Assembly (NCBI GenBank): GCA_009783755.1
Contig: WRCW01000004.1
Location: 1 to 34,339, forward strand
Length of the DNA stretch: 34,339 nt
Direction: 5' to 3'
Origin: Spirochaetaceae bacterium
GTDB lineage: Bacteria > Spirochaetota > Spirochaetia > CADAEX01
Shown here: one piece after another, positions 18,537 through 26,845 of the stretch
Position numbering within the stretch: position 1 is the stretch's first letter
Layout of the letters: each line of letters starts with the position of its first letter
Notes under the pieces: generated by a model
Databases searched by the model: none
The model's input: only the letters and a program-made list of their open reading frames with translations
Told to the model about the DNA's origin: nothing
Program-made: the position numbers and the translations under genes

Positions 18537-19658
18537 GTGTTAAAGACAGGTTTTGTAGGTTACAGAGGAATGGTTGGCTCTGTACTAATGAAAAGAATGG
18601 TAGAAGAGGATGATTTTAAAGGTTTTGAAAAAATATTTTTCTCAACTTCGCAGGCAGGTAAAAGCGATGTAATAGCAGGCGGAATGAGTACAGGCATTAT
18701 AGAAAATGCTGAAAACATAGACAAATTAAAAGCAATGGATGTTATTGTAACATGCCAGGGTGGAAGCTATACTGAAAAAATATATCCACAACTTTTGGCT
18801 ACTGGCTGGAAAGGGTACTGGATAGATGCTGCATCCACTTTAAGAATGAAAGATGATGCAATCATAATCCTTGATCCTGTAAATAGAAATGTTATAGATG
18901 AATCTTTAGCAAAAGGGATCAAATGCTATGTAGGTGGAAACTGTACAGTAAGCCTTATGCTTATGGGTATAGGACCGCTTTTTCAAAATAATCTTGTTGA
19001 ATGGTTAAGCACCATGACTTACCAGGCATCATCAGGAGCAGGCGCGCTTAACATGAAAGAGCTTCTTGCTCAGATGGCAGCTCTTGGTACTGTTGCAGGA
19101 GATAAGATTTATGACCCCGCATCTGCAATTCTTGAAGTTGACAGGCTTGTTACAGAAAAAATGAGAAGCAGTGATTTCCCTGTTGAGAATTTCAAAGTTC
19201 CATTAGCTGGAAGTGTTATTCCCTGGATCGATAAAGCTCTTGAAAATGGGCAGTCAAAAGAGGAATGGAAGGGAATGGCAGAGACAAATAAAATACTTAT
19301 GACAAAAAAACAGATACCTATAGATGGAATCTGCGTAAGAATCGGAGCAATGCGCTGTCATAGCCAGGGAGTTACAATAAAACTTACAAAAGATGTTCCA
19401 ATCAAAGATATTTATGACATGATTGCAGCAGGCAACGAATGGGTAAAAGTTGTTCCAAATGAAGTGGATGCAACAATAAGACAGCTTACCCCTGCGGCTG
19501 TTTCAGGAACTTTAACAATACCAGTTGGAAGAATAAGAAAGATGACTATTGGCAATGAATACTTAACTCTTTATACAGTAGGCGACCAGCTTCTTTGGGG
19601 AGCAGCAGAACCTGTAAGAAGAATGTTTAATATTGTCAGGGAGCATCTTGGTAAATAA
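18537..19658 (+). CDS. asd: Aspartate-semialdehyde dehydrogenase
   Basis: [52 protein letters not shown] (active-site GGNCTV), [14 protein letters not shown] start, RBS TTAGGAG. Confidence 0.93.
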
Positions 19659-19673
19659 TCTGAAAGGCTGATG
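19615..19673 (+). repeat. Direct repeat copy 1 (native 3' end of asd plus flanking 15 nt)
   Basis: 59 bp TAAGAAGAATGTTTAATATTGTCAGGGAGCATCTTGGTAAATAATCTGAAAGGCTGATG; matches 26787-26845 with 3 mismatches. Confidence 0.95.
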
Positions 19674-19983: not shown

Positions 19984-20157
19984 TTATTTTTTTATAAGGT
20001 TTTTATCTAATAGTTTTGTAGTATATTCTGCGATAAGCACAGATGATAGATTTTGCTTTGATGCATATCTAACCAACTAATCATCTTTATCTGCACATAA
20101 GATAATCCAGTCAACTGGATTTTTATTTATGGTCTCTAGCAAATTCTTTAAAATTGG
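19984..20157 (-). pseudogene. Decayed gene fragment, resembling the C-terminus of a DUF1016/YhcG-like PDDEXK nuclease
   Basis: (-) frame reads CPILKNLLETINKNPVDWIILCADKDD*LVRYASKQNLSSVLIAEYTTKLLDKNLIKK* with one internal TAG; resembles the (I/L)ILC-x-D-K-x(n)-V-x-YA...AEY C-terminal pattern of that family. Confidence 0.4.
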
Positions 20158-20173
20158 GCATCATTTTTTGAGA

Positions 20174-21391
20174 TTAATCATTTAATTTTCTGTATATCAA
20201 AATGTACTCATAGTTCATAGAATTGACTGGTTTCTGATATACATTTGATGTGAGTTTTGGGGTTCTTTTTCTTGGGATAGCTCTTCTGGTAGAATCAATA
20301 TTTATAAAGTTGTTTTCTTTTAAATAATTTTCAGTAATTGACACAAGATTAATATTAATCCTATCAACGGTTCTATTTCCTAATGTCAATATAATGTATT
20401 TTTTTGTAACCCTACATAATTCTTTTAGGAAATAAAAATAATCTTTAAAATACCTGATGATTTTTCGTTGTTTGGATATTGAAATTACAGTCAAATAATA
20501 TTCTATTAAGGACATTTCAAAATCACTAAGTAGGCCATATTTGTCTGCTCCTCCCATACTATGATTATCAATTGAGGAATAATTTCTTAATTCCCACCCC
20601 TCAAGGTTTAAATCATATTTTGGAATCGTGTAAAGAGTAAGCATTGAGAATTCTCCATAAGGTATAGTAGTTTTATTATCACCATAGGGTGGAGAAGTGA
20701 TAGAAATATCAAAGCTATTTTTATCATATTGTTTTATTACATCAAATATATCATTTTTATGAAGTATAAAATTATCAGATCTGTGTTTAAATTTATCAAT
20801 ATATTTTTTAGCATTATTAATAAAAGTATTTACAACAGTATCTTCCATGTTTTTTATTTTAATATTATCTTTTATATGTAATTTATATGTTGAACTTCTT
20901 GTATTACTATTGTACCTTATCACATCAGATAAAATATACCAAAAATATAACCTATTTTTTTTGCTTTTTATATTTATAATTGCTGTACGTAATAATGCTA
21001 AAGAATAAATCACATTTGGCTTGAGCCACTTTTTCATATTTGGAAAAGAATAATCAAAAATGAATGATGAATTGAGGATATAATCTTCGATTCTTTTTAT
21101 ATCACATAATATATTTTTACTCACACCTTGAAGTTTTACTCGAGTAATCAAATTAGCAAGTGGATTTATATCACATCCTACTAATTGAATATTTTGTGAA
21201 ATTTCAAATGCTTCATAAAGAGCTGTACCAGAACCATGGAAAGGATCAAATATTGATTTTATATTATCTTTTAGAATTATAGTTTCTAGTATTTTTTTTT
21301 GTACCGGAGCGACCATTATACCTGGATATAAAATTGTACCATGAATATCATTTTTTTTATTATATTCTTTATATTCAATATTACCAAACAT
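20174..21391 (-). CDS. DNA methyltransferase (N4-cytosine/N6-adenine type, motif I before SPPY)
   Basis: Motif I SIFDPFHGSGTALYEAF...GCDINPLA, motif IV ITSPPYGDN, YIILTLGNRTV. Confidence 0.85.
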   Translation of the reverse strand: MFGNIEYKEYNKKNDIHGTILYPGIMVAPVQKKILETIILKDNIKSIFDPFHGSGTALYEAFEISQNIQLVGCDINPLANLITRVKLQGVSKNILCDIKRIEDYILNSSFIFDYSFPNMKKWLKPNVIYSLALLRTAIINIKSKKNRLYFWYILSDVIRYNSNTRSSTYKLHIKDNIKIKNMEDTVVNTFINNAKKYIDKFKHRSDNFILHKNDIFDVIKQYDKNSFDISITSPPYGDNKTTIPYGEFSMLTLYTIPKYDLNLEGWELRNYSSIDNHSMGGADKYGLLSDFEMSLIEYYLTVISISKQRKIIRYFKDYFYFLKELCRVTKKYIILTLGNRTVDRININLVSITENYLKENNFINIDSTRRAIPRKRTPKLTSNVYQKPVNSMNYEYILIYRKLND

Positions 21392-21408
21392 ATTTTGTCC
21401 TTCAAACG

Positions 21409-23505
21409 CTATGCAATATTTTTATTATTTATCATTTCATTTGTTATTATAATAAATATACTTAAATATTTGATAATATAATGAATGTCATTTTCACATA
21501 TATATGTTGTAGATTTATGAGAGCTAAGATGGGTTTTGCCTATCACTTTTTCATAATCGCTAACGGATAGCAATTTATCTAGACTTTTATATTCTATTTT
21601 TGTTTTATTTGAAATCTCTGTTTTATAGTTTTTGTTACTTTTTATATAGTTTATAATTTTTATAACTTTTTTTTCAAAATCATTTATACCATTAAAGATG
21701 TTTGAGTATTTTTTTGATTTACTTATTGTATCAATACTTAATTCAAAAAGAACTCGTAATGAACATGAAATAATTTCCATGTATTTATTTAGTGGTAATA
21801 TATTTATTTGTTCTATTAGTTTATTTAAATACTGATTATATTTTATTAAATAATCTTCTTGGGCAGGTATAGTGAATAAACTTGATATTTTTTTTATTTT
21901 AATATTTGCTATAGGTTTAATAAAATTAAATATTAATCTTTCTATAACAATCCCAGTCTTAGAGTCAGAATAATTATAGTCTATTTTTATCTGACATGGT
22001 TTGTTAATACTAGATAAAATACCGTTTTTATTAATTTTCCCATTAACTCTAATAATAATATTATTATTATTTACTGATTCGCCATTGCTATTATAAATTG
22101 AATCAATATATTTTCTTAAATCAATCTGATCAGATGGTATTTCAATATTCAATTCATTGTTACAATTAAGATGGATTTTAGCTGGAAATGGTTCGTATTC
22201 ACTATTATATAAATTATCTTTCTCTTTATCATTCTTTATTAATAAAGTAGCTGTTTTACCAAACAGTGAATATGTTACCCTCTCTTTACAAATTTTAATT
22301 TTCACTTTATCTTTAAATGAAAAATCCTCTTTAATTATATCTCTATATTTAGAAACAGCATTTTTTATTTTATACTCAGACGATATATATTTTTCTTTCA
22401 ATATGTTAAAACCAACTAAATGCTGCTTATTTTTTGAACCAATTTCTTGGATTTTTTTGTTTATATTATATAGAAAATCTATTATAGAATCAGTTAATTC
22501 ATTCTGTAAAAATTGAGAACGATCTGAGTTAAAATCTATAAGAGTATTTTCGCTTAAAATTCGAATAAAACCAATCATTTGATTCATTACTTGGCTGGTT
22601 TTAATATTCCGCATAATGTTTGGATCAAAAATAGTGTAATTATTGAAAAGATTACTATTATAGTAAATCAATGGTGTTATATCATCAATGGAATTAAAAA
22701 ATAATTTATCAATTTTTTCTTTTCCATGAGATCTTAGCTGGAATGTTAATAATTCAATATCAATGCTGACATCTTCAAAAGGATATTTATATGTTTCCGT
22801 TAAAACAATTCGATTATTATACTTAAATAATATTTCCTGTGTATTATTGTTGTATGAAATATAAAATAACTGGAAATCTTTTCCATTATTAAGCAATGGG
22901 ATTAGTTTGTTACTTGAATATGTTTTTTTATCTATTATTAGAGTAATGTTAAAAAGTTTATCATCAAAAGAATGTATTATTTTTTTGTAATTTTTTTCTA
23001 AAGAAAAATATTCGCATATTGACTTAATATTATAGTCGTCAAGTGTTATGATAATCTCAGTACCTTTAGAAATATTATTATCTTCGATTAACTCAATCTC
23101 ATATTTTGATATATCCTCTGACGCAATAAGTTGATCAAAATCAAGACAAAATATAAAACCTTTATTCTTTTTCGTTTTCCACTTAACCATTCTCCCAAAC
23201 TTAAAAACTGATAAAAATCCAAGTCCTTTGGACCCTTGTGTTATTCTACCATTTAGATTCTTTTTACCATGAATTTTTGAACTCTTTGAAATATGGAATA
23301 ATGTATCAATATCACTTTTATCCATTCCAAAACCATCATCAACTATACGAAGTAGTTTTTCTAATGTATTTATTTCGATTGTAACAAAAGAAGCTTCAGC
23401 ATCATAAGAATTCTTAATTAATTCATTTAGGGCAATGATGTTTGTAGGAATTTTTTCAGAAAGTTCACTTATTATATTGCCACCAACTCGAATAATAGTT
23501 TTCAT
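21409..23505 (-). CDS. GHKL-fold (HSP90/MutL/MORC-like) ATPase
   Basis: N-box ALNELIKNSYDAEA, G1 VDDGFGMD, G2 TQGSKGLGFLSVFKFG; C-terminal helical region without an evident nuclease motif. Confidence 0.85.
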   Translation of the reverse strand: MKTIIRVGGNIISELSEKIPTNIIALNELIKNSYDAEASFVTIEINTLEKLLRIVDDGFGMDKSDIDTLFHISKSSKIHGKKNLNGRITQGSKGLGFLSVFKFGRMVKWKTKKNKGFIFCLDFDQLIASEDISKYEIELIEDNNISKGTEIIITLDDYNIKSICEYFSLEKNYKKIIHSFDDKLFNITLIIDKKTYSSNKLIPLLNNGKDFQLFYISYNNNTQEILFKYNNRIVLTETYKYPFEDVSIDIELLTFQLRSHGKEKIDKLFFNSIDDITPLIYYNSNLFNNYTIFDPNIMRNIKTSQVMNQMIGFIRILSENTLIDFNSDRSQFLQNELTDSIIDFLYNINKKIQEIGSKNKQHLVGFNILKEKYISSEYKIKNAVSKYRDIIKEDFSFKDKVKIKICKERVTYSLFGKTATLLIKNDKEKDNLYNSEYEPFPAKIHLNCNNELNIEIPSDQIDLRKYIDSIYNSNGESVNNNNIIIRVNGKINKNGILSSINKPCQIKIDYNYSDSKTGIVIERLIFNFIKPIANIKIKKISSLFTIPAQEDYLIKYNQYLNKLIEQINILPLNKYMEIISCSLRVLFELSIDTISKSKKYSNIFNGINDFEKKVIKIINYIKSNKNYKTEISNKTKIEYKSLDKLLSVSDYEKVIGKTHLSSHKSTTYICENDIHYIIKYLSIFIIITNEMINNKNIA

Positions 23506-23520
23506 AATATCTCCGAATAT

Positions 23521-26448
23521 TTATTTATTACCATACAACCTCTCCACAATTTTTTCCATCTCCTCTTCAAGAAAAACAGCATCCTTGAAACTTTTTTCCT
23601 CTTTCCTGTTTTTTAGCTCAATAATTTGCTGTACCATAACTTGAATTTTATCAATATCAGCTTGGTTCATCGTTGTCGGCTTAACAATGGGTAACTGCTC
23701 CAGATATTGCCGGTTACAAGACCAGAAGCCACCACGGAAAGGAGTAGATATTTTTGAGAGATATTTTGATAAAAGATTTGAGTTAAGCAGACCCACTATA
23801 TAATAATTCAAATGCTGATATTCTTTCTTGAGAATAACCCCGCCTACATCAACATTGTCCAAACACCATGCACCGGTTTCGTCGTATATTGCCTGAATTT
23901 CCTGTACTAAACGAGGTACGCAAATTTTGGCTTTGTCTTGAAGACTAATATTTTGATTTCGCCCAAATTGATACCAACCTTCTCCTTTGAACTTTCCTTT
24001 TTCTCGGTTTTCCAAAACCTTCTTGTTTTCCAAAAGGTAGTTCCATACTTTGGGAGATTTTTCTTCAAATACTTTTTTATTCACTAAAACTGGCTTCCCA
24101 TTCACTATATCATATGGGAATATTACCAACTGTCGTTTTTCAGGGCAAAGATATTTTTTGACATCTGTGCCGGAAATAATATGACGAACCCACTTCTTTT
24201 CAAGTTGTATGCTTGCATTAAATATAGTCGATTTCCCGGTAAAAAAAGTATTATTTTCACCTTCATATTCCAGAATAAAAACCTTGTCGGCACTGGTCTG
24301 AACTCCAACAAAAATATTATCACAAAATATGCTTAACTTTGGGTGGAGATTAAGCGTATCGAAAAATGCAAGATCATCCTCGCTATGCAATATCCATGGT
24401 GTTGCGGAAATTCGAAATGTATCAATACTGTTAAACTCCACATTTATATCTGCATTTTTACATTCAGCATAATTAAAAGTGGTATTCTTCTCTTTAGATA
24501 GAAACAAGAGACAAGTATAAGTTGTAGCCCCTTTGAAGACCTGAAAATCCTTGAAATTAACCAGCTTGTAAAGGTTACCACTGGTGGAAATTTGGGAGCG
24601 AATCATCTCACCATATTCCTGCTGCATGAATTTATTCGGCAAAATCATACCCGTAAGACCGGCCGGGGACAAAAGGGAAAGGGCTTTTTCTATGAATATA
24701 ACATATATATCATAATTTTTCGCTGAACTTGCTTTATAAAGTTCCCTGTACAGTTTTACAGTCTTAGGCGCCCATTCCTGCATTTCCTGAATCCGTATAT
24801 ACGGTGGATTTCCAATAATTACATCGAATCCTATAGAATTGAATTCATACCAATCAAAAGGGTTTATATCGGGATCGCCGAAGAAGTCATAATCAAAAAG
24901 CTGTTTCCGATCGATAAGAGAATTGCCACATTTGATATTTCCCGCCATGTCCGGCAGGATATGCCCTCGAATAAACAACTCGCCTTGGCCTTTGTCATAA
25001 CCTTCGTCAAGAATTTTAAGATACAAGCTCATAATGGCAACTTCGGTCGCTTCGCGGTCTATGTCAACTCCAAAAATATTATTTTTCAATATCTCCGCTT
25101 TCTTTTTTAGGGTTAGCTGGACTTCATTGTCTGCATTGGCAAAAAAATCATCTCGGTATTTCCTTTGTATTGCCTGGCTTGCACAAGCATACCATTTACG
25201 GTGATATTCAATCAGGTAGTGAAAAGCCCCAAGTAGAAAACTGCCGGAGCCGCAGGCTGGATCGCAAATTTTAATGGGTTCTATTTCATCAGGAGATTTA
25301 CCATTTATCTTTACGCCAACCGTATTTTCCACAATATAATCAACAACGTACTGTGGTGTATAATAAACACCTCCGGCATGGCGTACTTCAGGTTTTTCCT
25401 CCATCTTAGCCTGAAGATTATCTGTAAGACGTATCTTGCTTCCCAAAAAACGCTCATAAATGCGGCCCAATATTTCAGGTTCAATCATATCAAATTCATA
25501 CGGTGAGTGGGGGGGGCATAATTGCTTTATAATAGTTTTAATAGTCGGATCATCTATATTTACAGTTTCTGAAAAATGTTCTTTGAAAAGCAATCCGTTA
25601 AATTCTGCATCAAGATCTCTGAAAAGGGGAATTAAGTGAAGATATATATTTTCTTTTACTTTGAGAATTGAAAGAAGGGTATTTTCACTTTTTATTTCCC
25701 GGTCTTCAAGATTACGGATAAAAATCAACCTATCCAAAATACGCTGTATCGTTTCGTTTATATGATCCACAGAAAGACCTTTATTCCGCAGCGCGACATT
25801 CCTGGCTAGTGTCTCCCGCAAAGCGGAAATGTCAGATAAAAATTCATCATCAAGAGATTTAGTATTTCGGCTCACCTTCCCGATTAACCGCTCAATACTC
25901 CCTTCTGTCACCGCTTCTTTAGAAAAAACATCCCAGATTGAGTCCCATGTATCTAGATAGGCATGATACTCCAAATCAAGCCCTTTAATCAGACCTTGTA
26001 GAGGGTTCTCGTACACAGGTTTTTCTAAGCCGTTAAATACTCTTAGAGTTTGAAAATCAGTAAGAATAACGATGGGAGTCTTTCCATGGGAGGAAAAAGC
26101 ATAGCGCTTGGCCTGGAAAACTGGAATATTTCCTGTCAAGTCAACCCAGGGGGCTTTTGCCTCTACAAAAAATTTTTCTTTGTATTTTAAACCGTCTTTA
26201 ATCCGAAAAGCGTAGTCCGGTTTTTTAGTAGTCGAATTATCTCGTTGGCTGAATTCACGATGAACATCCCAAAATTTTCTGGCTATGCCGGTTTGGTGAA
26301 AATCCCAGCCCAAAGCGGTAAAGAAGGGGTCTATAAATCGACTGCGAGTCTCAGTTTCCTGAAAGTTTTTTGACATATACTGCTGTTCGTTTTTTTCGAA
26401 GTCATTTACTAGATTATGTATTGTTTCTTTTCCAGTTTGTCTTGTCAT
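23521..26448 (-). CDS. Eco57I-like type IIG restriction-modification protein (N-terminal nuclease-like region, methylase, C-terminal specificity domain)
   Basis: N-terminal PDYAF...FFVEAKAP (PD..ExK-like), motif I DPACGSGSFLLGAF, motif IV NPPYIRIQ, TaqI/Eco57I-like C-terminal region. ORF opens with TTG at 26487; ATG at 26448 (MTRQTGKE) taken as the start. Confidence 0.88.
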   Translation of the reverse strand: MTRQTGKETIHNLVNDFEKNEQQYMSKNFQETETRSRFIDPFFTALGWDFHQTGIARKFWDVHREFSQRDNSTTKKPDYAFRIKDGLKYKEKFFVEAKAPWVDLTGNIPVFQAKRYAFSSHGKTPIVILTDFQTLRVFNGLEKPVYENPLQGLIKGLDLEYHAYLDTWDSIWDVFSKEAVTEGSIERLIGKVSRNTKSLDDEFLSDISALRETLARNVALRNKGLSVDHINETIQRILDRLIFIRNLEDREIKSENTLLSILKVKENIYLHLIPLFRDLDAEFNGLLFKEHFSETVNIDDPTIKTIIKQLCPPHSPYEFDMIEPEILGRIYERFLGSKIRLTDNLQAKMEEKPEVRHAGGVYYTPQYVVDYIVENTVGVKINGKSPDEIEPIKICDPACGSGSFLLGAFHYLIEYHRKWYACASQAIQRKYRDDFFANADNEVQLTLKKKAEILKNNIFGVDIDREATEVAIMSLYLKILDEGYDKGQGELFIRGHILPDMAGNIKCGNSLIDRKQLFDYDFFGDPDINPFDWYEFNSIGFDVIIGNPPYIRIQEMQEWAPKTVKLYRELYKASSAKNYDIYVIFIEKALSLLSPAGLTGMILPNKFMQQEYGEMIRSQISTSGNLYKLVNFKDFQVFKGATTYTCLLFLSKEKNTTFNYAECKNADINVEFNSIDTFRISATPWILHSEDDLAFFDTLNLHPKLSIFCDNIFVGVQTSADKVFILEYEGENNTFFTGKSTIFNASIQLEKKWVRHIISGTDVKKYLCPEKRQLVIFPYDIVNGKPVLVNKKVFEEKSPKVWNYLLENKKVLENREKGKFKGEGWYQFGRNQNISLQDKAKICVPRLVQEIQAIYDETGAWCLDNVDVGGVILKKEYQHLNYYIVGLLNSNLLSKYLSKISTPFRGGFWSCNRQYLEQLPIVKPTTMNQADIDKIQVMVQQIIELKNRKEEKSFKDAVFLEEEMEKIVERLYGNK
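25509..25516 (-). repeat. C8 homopolymer inside the type IIG coding sequence (G8 on + strand)
   Basis: gtgagtGGGGGGGGcata; coding strand TGC CCC CCC CAC (CPPH). Confidence 0.95.
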
Positions 26449-26641
26449 CGTAATGATTAGTATGAGGTTGGGTTGGTTTTTTGTCAATTATTTATTAAAA
26501 ATCAAAAAATACAAGAGATAAAAAGTATCCTTACCAATTAACACTAAGAAGGGTAAAATTTAAAATGACCATTTCTAGTTTTTAATTATAGGTAAAACAT
26601 ATCTAATTTTATAGATATACTGCTTATGCGTAATAAGTCTA

Positions 26642-26777
26642 TTATAATCGAGCAACAATTTTCTCAAGTTTTAGACCTCTTTCAATAGCTCTTTTCAAGA
26701 TGGTATCTGTAAAGATAATTCATTACAACCATATCAAATTGAGTTGTTGTTGTAGTTTCTTTTAAAACCTTTTTCAA
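26642..26777 (-). pseudogene. Decayed fragment resembling the C-terminus of phosphoketolase
   Basis: (-) frame reads LKKVLKETTTTTQFDMVVMNYLYRYHLEKSY*; resembles the phosphoketolase string [20 protein letters not shown]. A second frame continues KRAIERGLKLEKIVARL*. Confidence 0.5.
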
Positions 26778-26786
26778 GAAGACTAT

Positions 26787-26845
26787 TAAGAAGAATGTTC
26801 AATATTGTCAGGGAGTATCTTGGTAAATAATCTGAAAAGCTGATG
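26787..26845 (+). repeat. Direct repeat copy 2 (orphan copy of the asd 3' end)
   Basis: TAAGAAGAATGTTCAATATTGTCAGGGAGTATCTTGGTAAATAATCTGAAAAGCTGATG; 56/59 identical to 19615-19673; reads [13 protein letters not shown] versus [13 protein letters not shown] in asd. Confidence 0.95.

Follow-up and report, generated by a model that had tools for sequence, protein, structure and literature searches.

MutL and MORC proteins are GHKL ATPases that clamp DNA as dimers. MutL/MORC-like GHKL ATPases of bacteria (paraMORC) have been linked to restriction-modification (R-M) systems (Iyer et al. 2008, PMC2292703), and paraMORC ATPases with C-terminal HEPN domains were subsequently described in R-M neighbourhoods and proposed to be analogues of PrrC and RloC (Anantharaman et al. 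2013, PMC3710099). Meanwhile, PD-lambda-5, a system described as combining restriction-modification with abortive infection (RM+Abi), protects E. coli from phage (Vassallo et al. 2022, PMC9519451). Here we describe a locus of three genes, encoding a DNA methyltransferase (MTase), a GHKL ATPase and a type IIG enzyme, on contig WRCW01000004.1 of a Spirochaetaceae bacterium (assembly GCA_009783755.1; the whole stretch of 34,339 nucleotides analysed is hereafter the window). The first-pass annotation of this locus aptly cited the 2008 study, and the 2013 study is closer still. We postulate, with a probability of roughly 0.6, that the locus is a horizontally acquired defence island stacking two separate systems, namely the type IIG enzyme and an ATPase/MTase pair that would act as an MTase-guarded defence. 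The two-module architecture as such we regard as highly probable.

The distribution of the ATPase provided insights into the independence of the pair. A family profile seeded from two distant plasmid GHKL proteins found two full-length orthologues on viral contigs, which were then used as the basis for a scan of approximately 85,000 genomes; orthologue counts are lower bounds, and E-values of the locus scan are relative to the candidates only. At least 16 ATPase loci occur besides the window, at least 13 of them complete and at least three decayed or truncated, in at least five phyla (Bacteroidota, Bacillota, Spirochaetota, Pseudomonadota, and Verrucomicrobiota) and on the two viral contigs. 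The complete orthologues are 26-62% identical to the window ATPase and, together with the truncated copy at locus L096 (L numbers are our locus handles), scored 510-1001 bits against the family profile, while the next GHKL protein scored 89 (pieces of broken copies aside). GHKL proteins of Hymenobacter and Rhizobium were rejected as orthologues because only residues 2-154 or so align and the C-termini differ. Searching plasmids and phages with the ATPase by tblastn returned N-terminal GHKL similarity only, scans of viral contigs with the single ATPase or the single type IIG protein gave no match, and no second ATPase was found among 393 genomes of the same phylum, a subset of that phylum, at a threshold of 1e-15.

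An MTase of the same family directly adjoins the ATPase in 14 of the 16 listed loci and lies within 5 kb in the other two (L063 and L094). The ATPase comes first in seven loci (L062, L087-L091, and L097), and the MTase comes first in L092, L093, L095, L096, L098, L099, and L100. Since both gene orders occur, it is the pair itself that has been kept, rather than one inherited operon. The two genes are also alike in GC content at all loci, mostly within about 3 points and never differing by more than 5, and both fall below their surroundings in 13 of the 14 measured loci, by up to 25 points; the exception is L092, where the GC content of the MTase equals that of the surroundings. The pair is mobile and its genes move together: in the group of the window the ATPase and MTase trees have the same branching, with the window, L090 and L087 together, then L088 and then L089. 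Named isolates of Enterococcus, Gilliamella, Photorhabdus, and Lutispora carry the pair. Judged from these comparisons, the ATPase and MTase form a self-standing mobile cassette. In Colwellia (L094:2962-11064), an MTase, a frameshifted GHKL protein of a second kind and an ATPase of the window type stand in a row, adjoining genes that by eye resemble TniQ/TnsD.

An orthologue of the type IIG gene was present at only two of the 16 listed ATPase loci (L090 and L087). Homologues of this gene (E-value of 1e-100 or better) occurred in 65 of the 393 same-phylum genomes, the window's own included, and among these 65 only the window's genome had the ATPase. The 64 remaining genomes therefore indicate that the type IIG enzyme does not need the ATPase. 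The first-pass annotation had offered two readings, a composite system in which the ATPase licenses restriction by the type IIG enzyme, and two systems stacked together; the pair and the type IIG gene each occurring without the other leaves the former unsupported and argues for the latter. The type IIG protein matches its PADLOC model over the whole length, has Pfam matches to Eco57I (3e-38) and TaqI_C (5e-13), and retains intact PDY/EAK, DPACGSG, and NPPY motifs. As the first reading had it, nuclease-like, methylase and specificity regions are combined in one chain, in the form of an N-terminal PD-(D/E)xK-like region, an Eco57I/N6 methylase domain and a TaqI_C specificity domain. By its sequence, this is an ordinary Eco57I-like type IIG R-M enzyme, with predicted cleavage activity.

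The whole trio recurs in other genomes, contrary to the possibility, raised earlier, that it is conserved nowhere else. In Spirochaetia bacterium MS502-68 (L090), it aligns with the window as a single block of 6337 bp at 74% DNA identity, and in the Bacteroidales MAG Cd354_bin6 (L087), 4191 bp align at 71% up to the end of that contig inside the type IIG gene. The arrangement is not due to chance, because gene content and gene order are shared with L090 along one continuous block. Protein identities to the window in L090 and L087 are 82 and 77% for the type IIG enzyme, 62 and 61% for the ATPase, and 73 and 72% for the MTase, and the spacing between ATPase and MTase is 14-18 nt in all three loci. 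No other listed locus has a type IIG orthologue, and both trees group these three as a single clade. The simplest account is thus a single joining of the two modules, followed by transfer of the whole between phyla; the stack travels but is not obligate. Inside the trio of the window there is a sharp break in GC content (type IIG gene 37.7%, ATPase 23.0%, MTase 25.0%). This break (38-45% against 23-31% for the pair) is kept in all three loci, which is what separate origins of the two modules would lead one to expect.

The surroundings of the trio also point to an island. A decayed YhcG_C fragment, whose PF06250 score is below the family cut-off, directly follows the MTase, and intact YhcG genes matching PADLOC PDC-S02 occupy the same slot in L087 and L090, suggesting that the ancestral layout was probably IIG-ATPase-MTase-YhcG. 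The present island has a copy of the 3′ end of asd on either side, in direct repeat. In two genomes of the same genus asd is present without the trio after it; hence, the island was probably acquired. No integrase was found near the island. The asd repeat resembles a footprint of integration or duplication, and positions 26561-26791 hold the 3′-end remnant of a gene that is intact after asd in L207 (6575-8950, phosphoketolase-like by eye).

The ATPase retains the GHKL motifs ELIKNSYDA, DDGFGM, QGSKGLGFL, and GT. Its AlphaFold2 model (mean pLDDT 79.6, pTM 0.54) comprises a GHKL domain, an S5 domain, a beta-rich region at approximately residues 400-530 and a C-terminal helical domain (559-693), and Foldseek matched it to Hsp90, TRAP1, and MutL LN40 (E 1e-11 to 1e-9). 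The ATPase thus has the GHKL motifs, S5 domain, C-terminal extension and R-M neighbourhood by which paraMORC proteins are recognised (Iyer et al. 2008). The C-terminal domain folded alone reached a pLDDT of 88.5. In the alignment of 14 ATPase orthologues, residues R584, E588, and H663 of this domain (R-x3-E...H) are invariant, and its best-fitting Foldseek matches among PDB and viral structures are HEPN domains (TM approximately 0.45-0.58, best E 1.3-1.8). A sequence search gave no solved relatives of the domain. Neither PD-(D/E)XK, HNH nor any other DNase family was detected in the 14 orthologues. The C-terminus thus looks like a conserved helical domain that is predicted to be HEPN-like. The earlier description of a helical C-terminus devoid of an evident nuclease motif holds as far as it goes, but the domain is conserved and recognisable.

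This domain also connects the ATPase to a known defence system. The PD-Lambda-5_A models of PADLOC match the ATPase only at the C-terminal domain, in the window (residues 544-642, 4e-5) and in several orthologues, where the match covers most of the domain (1.9e-14 in L063, 9.6e-20 in the best orthologue) and spans the C-terminal 90-145 residues. A PD-Lambda-5_A-like protein of the same phylum (L240:3770-5946) has an unrelated N-terminus that by eye looks ParB-like (no Pfam match), a matching R-x3-E helix, and a D12-class methyltransferase next door. Aligned by hhalign with this one sequence, the C-terminal domain obtained an E-value of 7e-4 but a probability of only 26%. The PD-Lambda-5_A matches and L240 suggest that the same tail is carried by different sensors beside different methyltransferases: a GHKL clamp with an N4-type enzyme here, another N-terminus in PD-lambda-5, and a D12-class enzyme in L240.

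The MTase (intact motifs FDPFHGSG and TSPPY) belongs to the MvaI/BcnI lineage and is probably an N4-cytosine methyltransferase, judging from the TSPPY motif and from what is known of the family. Its plasmid relatives adjoin MvaI/BcnI endonucleases, and among the loci examined in the same phylum, eight show this neighbourhood for an MTase relative. ATPase-linked genes and those beside MvaI/BcnI endonucleases fall apart in the MTase tree, with the exception of L063, suggesting that the ATPase takes the place of the endonuclease. No candidate open reading frame (ORF) for such an endonuclease lies beside the window MTase, and among the listed ATPase-orthologue loci only L063 has one. Accordingly, the window pair was rejected as an MvaI/BcnI R-M system, its endonuclease gene not being found.

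Further arrangements were observed around MTases of this kind. A sister MTase lineage is linked to GHKL proteins (L058:4929-8831, L064, L105, L123, and L130), several of which have a second, C-terminal HATPase_c-like region, in a parallel two-gene arrangement. On a Lactobacillus iners plasmid (L056:6392-9794), a related MTase is followed by three genes with neither a Pfam match above cut-off nor a PADLOC match, which are possible novel effectors. On a viral contig (L168:5294-10610), four genes or gene fragments of MvaI/BcnI-like endonucleases share one strand, and an ATPase orthologue lies close by.

Based on these findings, we propose that the MTase would mark host DNA as self, and that a dimer of the ATPase would clamp DNA that lacks this mark or has been altered by phage. 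Where the mark is absent or lost, the ATP cycle would activate an effector, which is likely the C-terminal domain of the ATPase itself. The pair has intact genes and is conserved in several phyla, which disagrees with the earlier suggestion that its effector is missing or decayed. The effector would most likely be an RNase acting abortively, as proposed for paraMORC-HEPN proteins, and less likely a DNase; we place an RNase-type effector a little short of even odds. Several observations weigh against this proposal. None of the Foldseek matches of the C-terminal domain is statistically significant, and the canonical HEPN motif Rx4-6H is missing in 13 of the 14 C-terminal domains; failing this motif test, the domain was rejected as a canonical HEPN. 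In addition, a cryptic DNase activity with direct restriction would give the same gene content, and the linkage to the type IIG gene has outlasted divergence in three genomes, so that some cooperation may remain.

One rival account differs from ours only in the target of the effector, DNA instead of RNA. The ATPase would then be the restriction subunit of a two-gene R-M system, scanning by means of ATP and cleaving DNA with its C-terminal domain or its middle region, while the MTase protects the host. In this lineage the usual partner of the MTase is a DNase (MvaI/BcnI), here replaced by the ATPase; GHKL-nuclease fusions exist in phage defence (VcSduA, PMC12137116); and the REase_II models of PADLOC match the GHKL region of several orthologues. 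The lack of any DNase family in the 14 orthologues and the all-helical, predicted HEPN-like fold of the C-terminus nonetheless make this account unlikely. The loss of an endonuclease could also have left behind an orphan modification enzyme, the remainder of a decayed MvaI/BcnI system with the ATPase as a passenger, a scenario for which the endonucleases beside MTase relatives speak. It is very improbable, as every major lineage has an intact ATPase next to an MTase of this family, with both orders occurring, and the ATPase-linked MTases form lineages of their own.

Cooperation within the trio is suggested by the fact that three genomes from two phyla keep it as one block (71-74% DNA identity), the ATPase and MTase being closely spaced in each. 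The ATPase could license or regulate the type IIG enzyme while the extra MTase broadens protection, and other complete R-M systems also lie beside or near the pair: a ResIII+Eco57I single chain in L097, a PstI-like fused R-M enzyme in L092, a type I system in L091 and a BcnI-like one in L063. At most other pair loci no R-M system was noticed nearby. Such neighbours fit defence islands and also fit a companion role, and cooperation does not follow from them. We consider a three-gene composite improbable given that a type IIG orthologue is absent from most pair loci, that 64 same-phylum genomes have the type IIG homologue without the ATPase, that the GC break falls between these two genes, and that the three trio loci, being one clade, represent one joining event. 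Sister MTases whose GHKL partners have a second HATPase_c domain at the C-terminus (L058 and similar loci) speak for a paraMORC ATPase acting in signalling or gene regulation, in the manner of HEF_HK/Response_reg_2 pairs, but the window ATPase and 13 orthologues gave no HEF_HK match and the window has no response-regulator neighbour; we thus give this explanation hardly any weight.

The trio consists of three intact co-directional genes (Table 1), confirming the first reading of three ORFs with gaps of about 15 and 17 nt: the MTase and ATPase are separated by 17 nt, and the ATPase and type IIG gene by 15 nt. Plausible Shine-Dalgarno sequences (GAAGGA and GGAG) precede both downstream genes, and no terminator-like site was found in either gap. 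A mechanical ORF of the type IIG gene starting from TTG 26487 is longer; the start is most likely ATG 26448, since the orthologue of L090, the closest relative, begins at the same residue.

Table 1 Features of the trio and its surroundings in the window
Feature	Positions	Strand	Length	Basis
Asd 3′ end, left direct-repeat copy	19615-19673	+		56/59 identical to 26787-26845
Decayed C-terminal fragment of a YhcG/DUF1016 PD-(D/E)XK nuclease	19999-20160	-		PF06250 E 1.5e-5, one internal stop
DNA MTase	20174-21391	-	405 aa	PADLOC MTase_II PDLC03322 5.5e-54
GHKL ATPase with S5 domain, beta-rich middle and C-terminal helical domain	21409-23505	-	698 aa	Pfam HATPase_c_3 1.2e-16
ATPase C-terminal domain (residues 545-698), predicted HEPN-like	21412-21873	-		PD-Lambda-5_A matches, alignment, AlphaFold2
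Type IIG enzyme	23521-26448	-	975 aa from ATG 26448	PADLOC REase_MTase_IIG PDLC03604 E 1.8e-208
Asd 3′ end duplicate, right direct-repeat copy	26787-26845	+		56/59 identical to 19615-19673

A defence role of the pair would join the 2008 prediction on MORC-like ATPases and the 2013 prediction of abortive ATPase-HEPN proteins to the experimentally found PD-lambda-5. We tentatively suggest, as a possibility, that the pair belongs to a distinct and hitherto undescribed class of MTase-guarded immunity. Unmodified phage DNA would be sensed by a MutL/Hsp90-type clamp, which would activate a HEPN-like effector of non-canonical type with R-x3-E...H as its active site, an effector shared by unrelated sensors and MTases. 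Should the pair act in defence, the way in which a MORC/MutL-like clamp reads DNA modification becomes testable, which bears on eukaryotic MORC proteins as well. In practical terms, the pair offers two compact genes, present in named isolates and with named residues to mutate.

Comparison with known systems places the pair near several of them. Loci of paraMORC and paraMORC-HEPN(Ymh) fusions share the GHKL and S5 ATPase, the C-terminal extension, the linkage to a DNA methylase and a predicted HEPN-like tail, but here there is neither a helicase nor a separate endonuclease, Pfam Ymh was not detected and the canonical HEPN motif is absent. The MTase is of the same family as those of MvaI/BcnI type II R-M systems, in which the endonuclease stands where the GHKL ATPase is found here. 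The GHKL-Shedu protein VcSduA likewise has an N-terminal GHKL ATPase, a part proposed to govern its C-terminal effector in phage defence, but the window system has its own MTase and no DUF4263 nuclease; a Shedu identity was rejected, as Pfam DUF4263 was not matched in any of the 14 orthologues. HEF_HK/Response_reg_2 elements (Bellieny-Rabelo et al. 2021, PMC8011034) also have an MTase followed by a paraMORC-like GHKL protein, but differ in their HEF_HK match, second HATPase_c domain and response-regulator gene, all absent here, and this identity was rejected because Pfam HEF_HK had no match in the 14 orthologues. Nothing but its neighbours sets the type IIG gene apart from other Eco57I-like type IIG R-M enzymes.

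The pair stands alone, as the first-pass annotation had considered, but not as a described system: it matches no PADLOC 2.0 system, and no description of it was found in the open-licence literature. With PD-Lambda-5 it shares a methyltransferase beside a protein that ends in the same C-terminal helical domain. It differs in the GHKL-S5 N-terminus of that protein, which PD-Lambda-5_A does not match over the whole length, and in an MTase of the MvaI/BcnI lineage, which matches MTase_II models and not PD-Lambda-5_B. The pieces were thus foreseen in the literature, while the pair itself looks like an unlisted self/non-self defence system that is partly related to PD-lambda-5.

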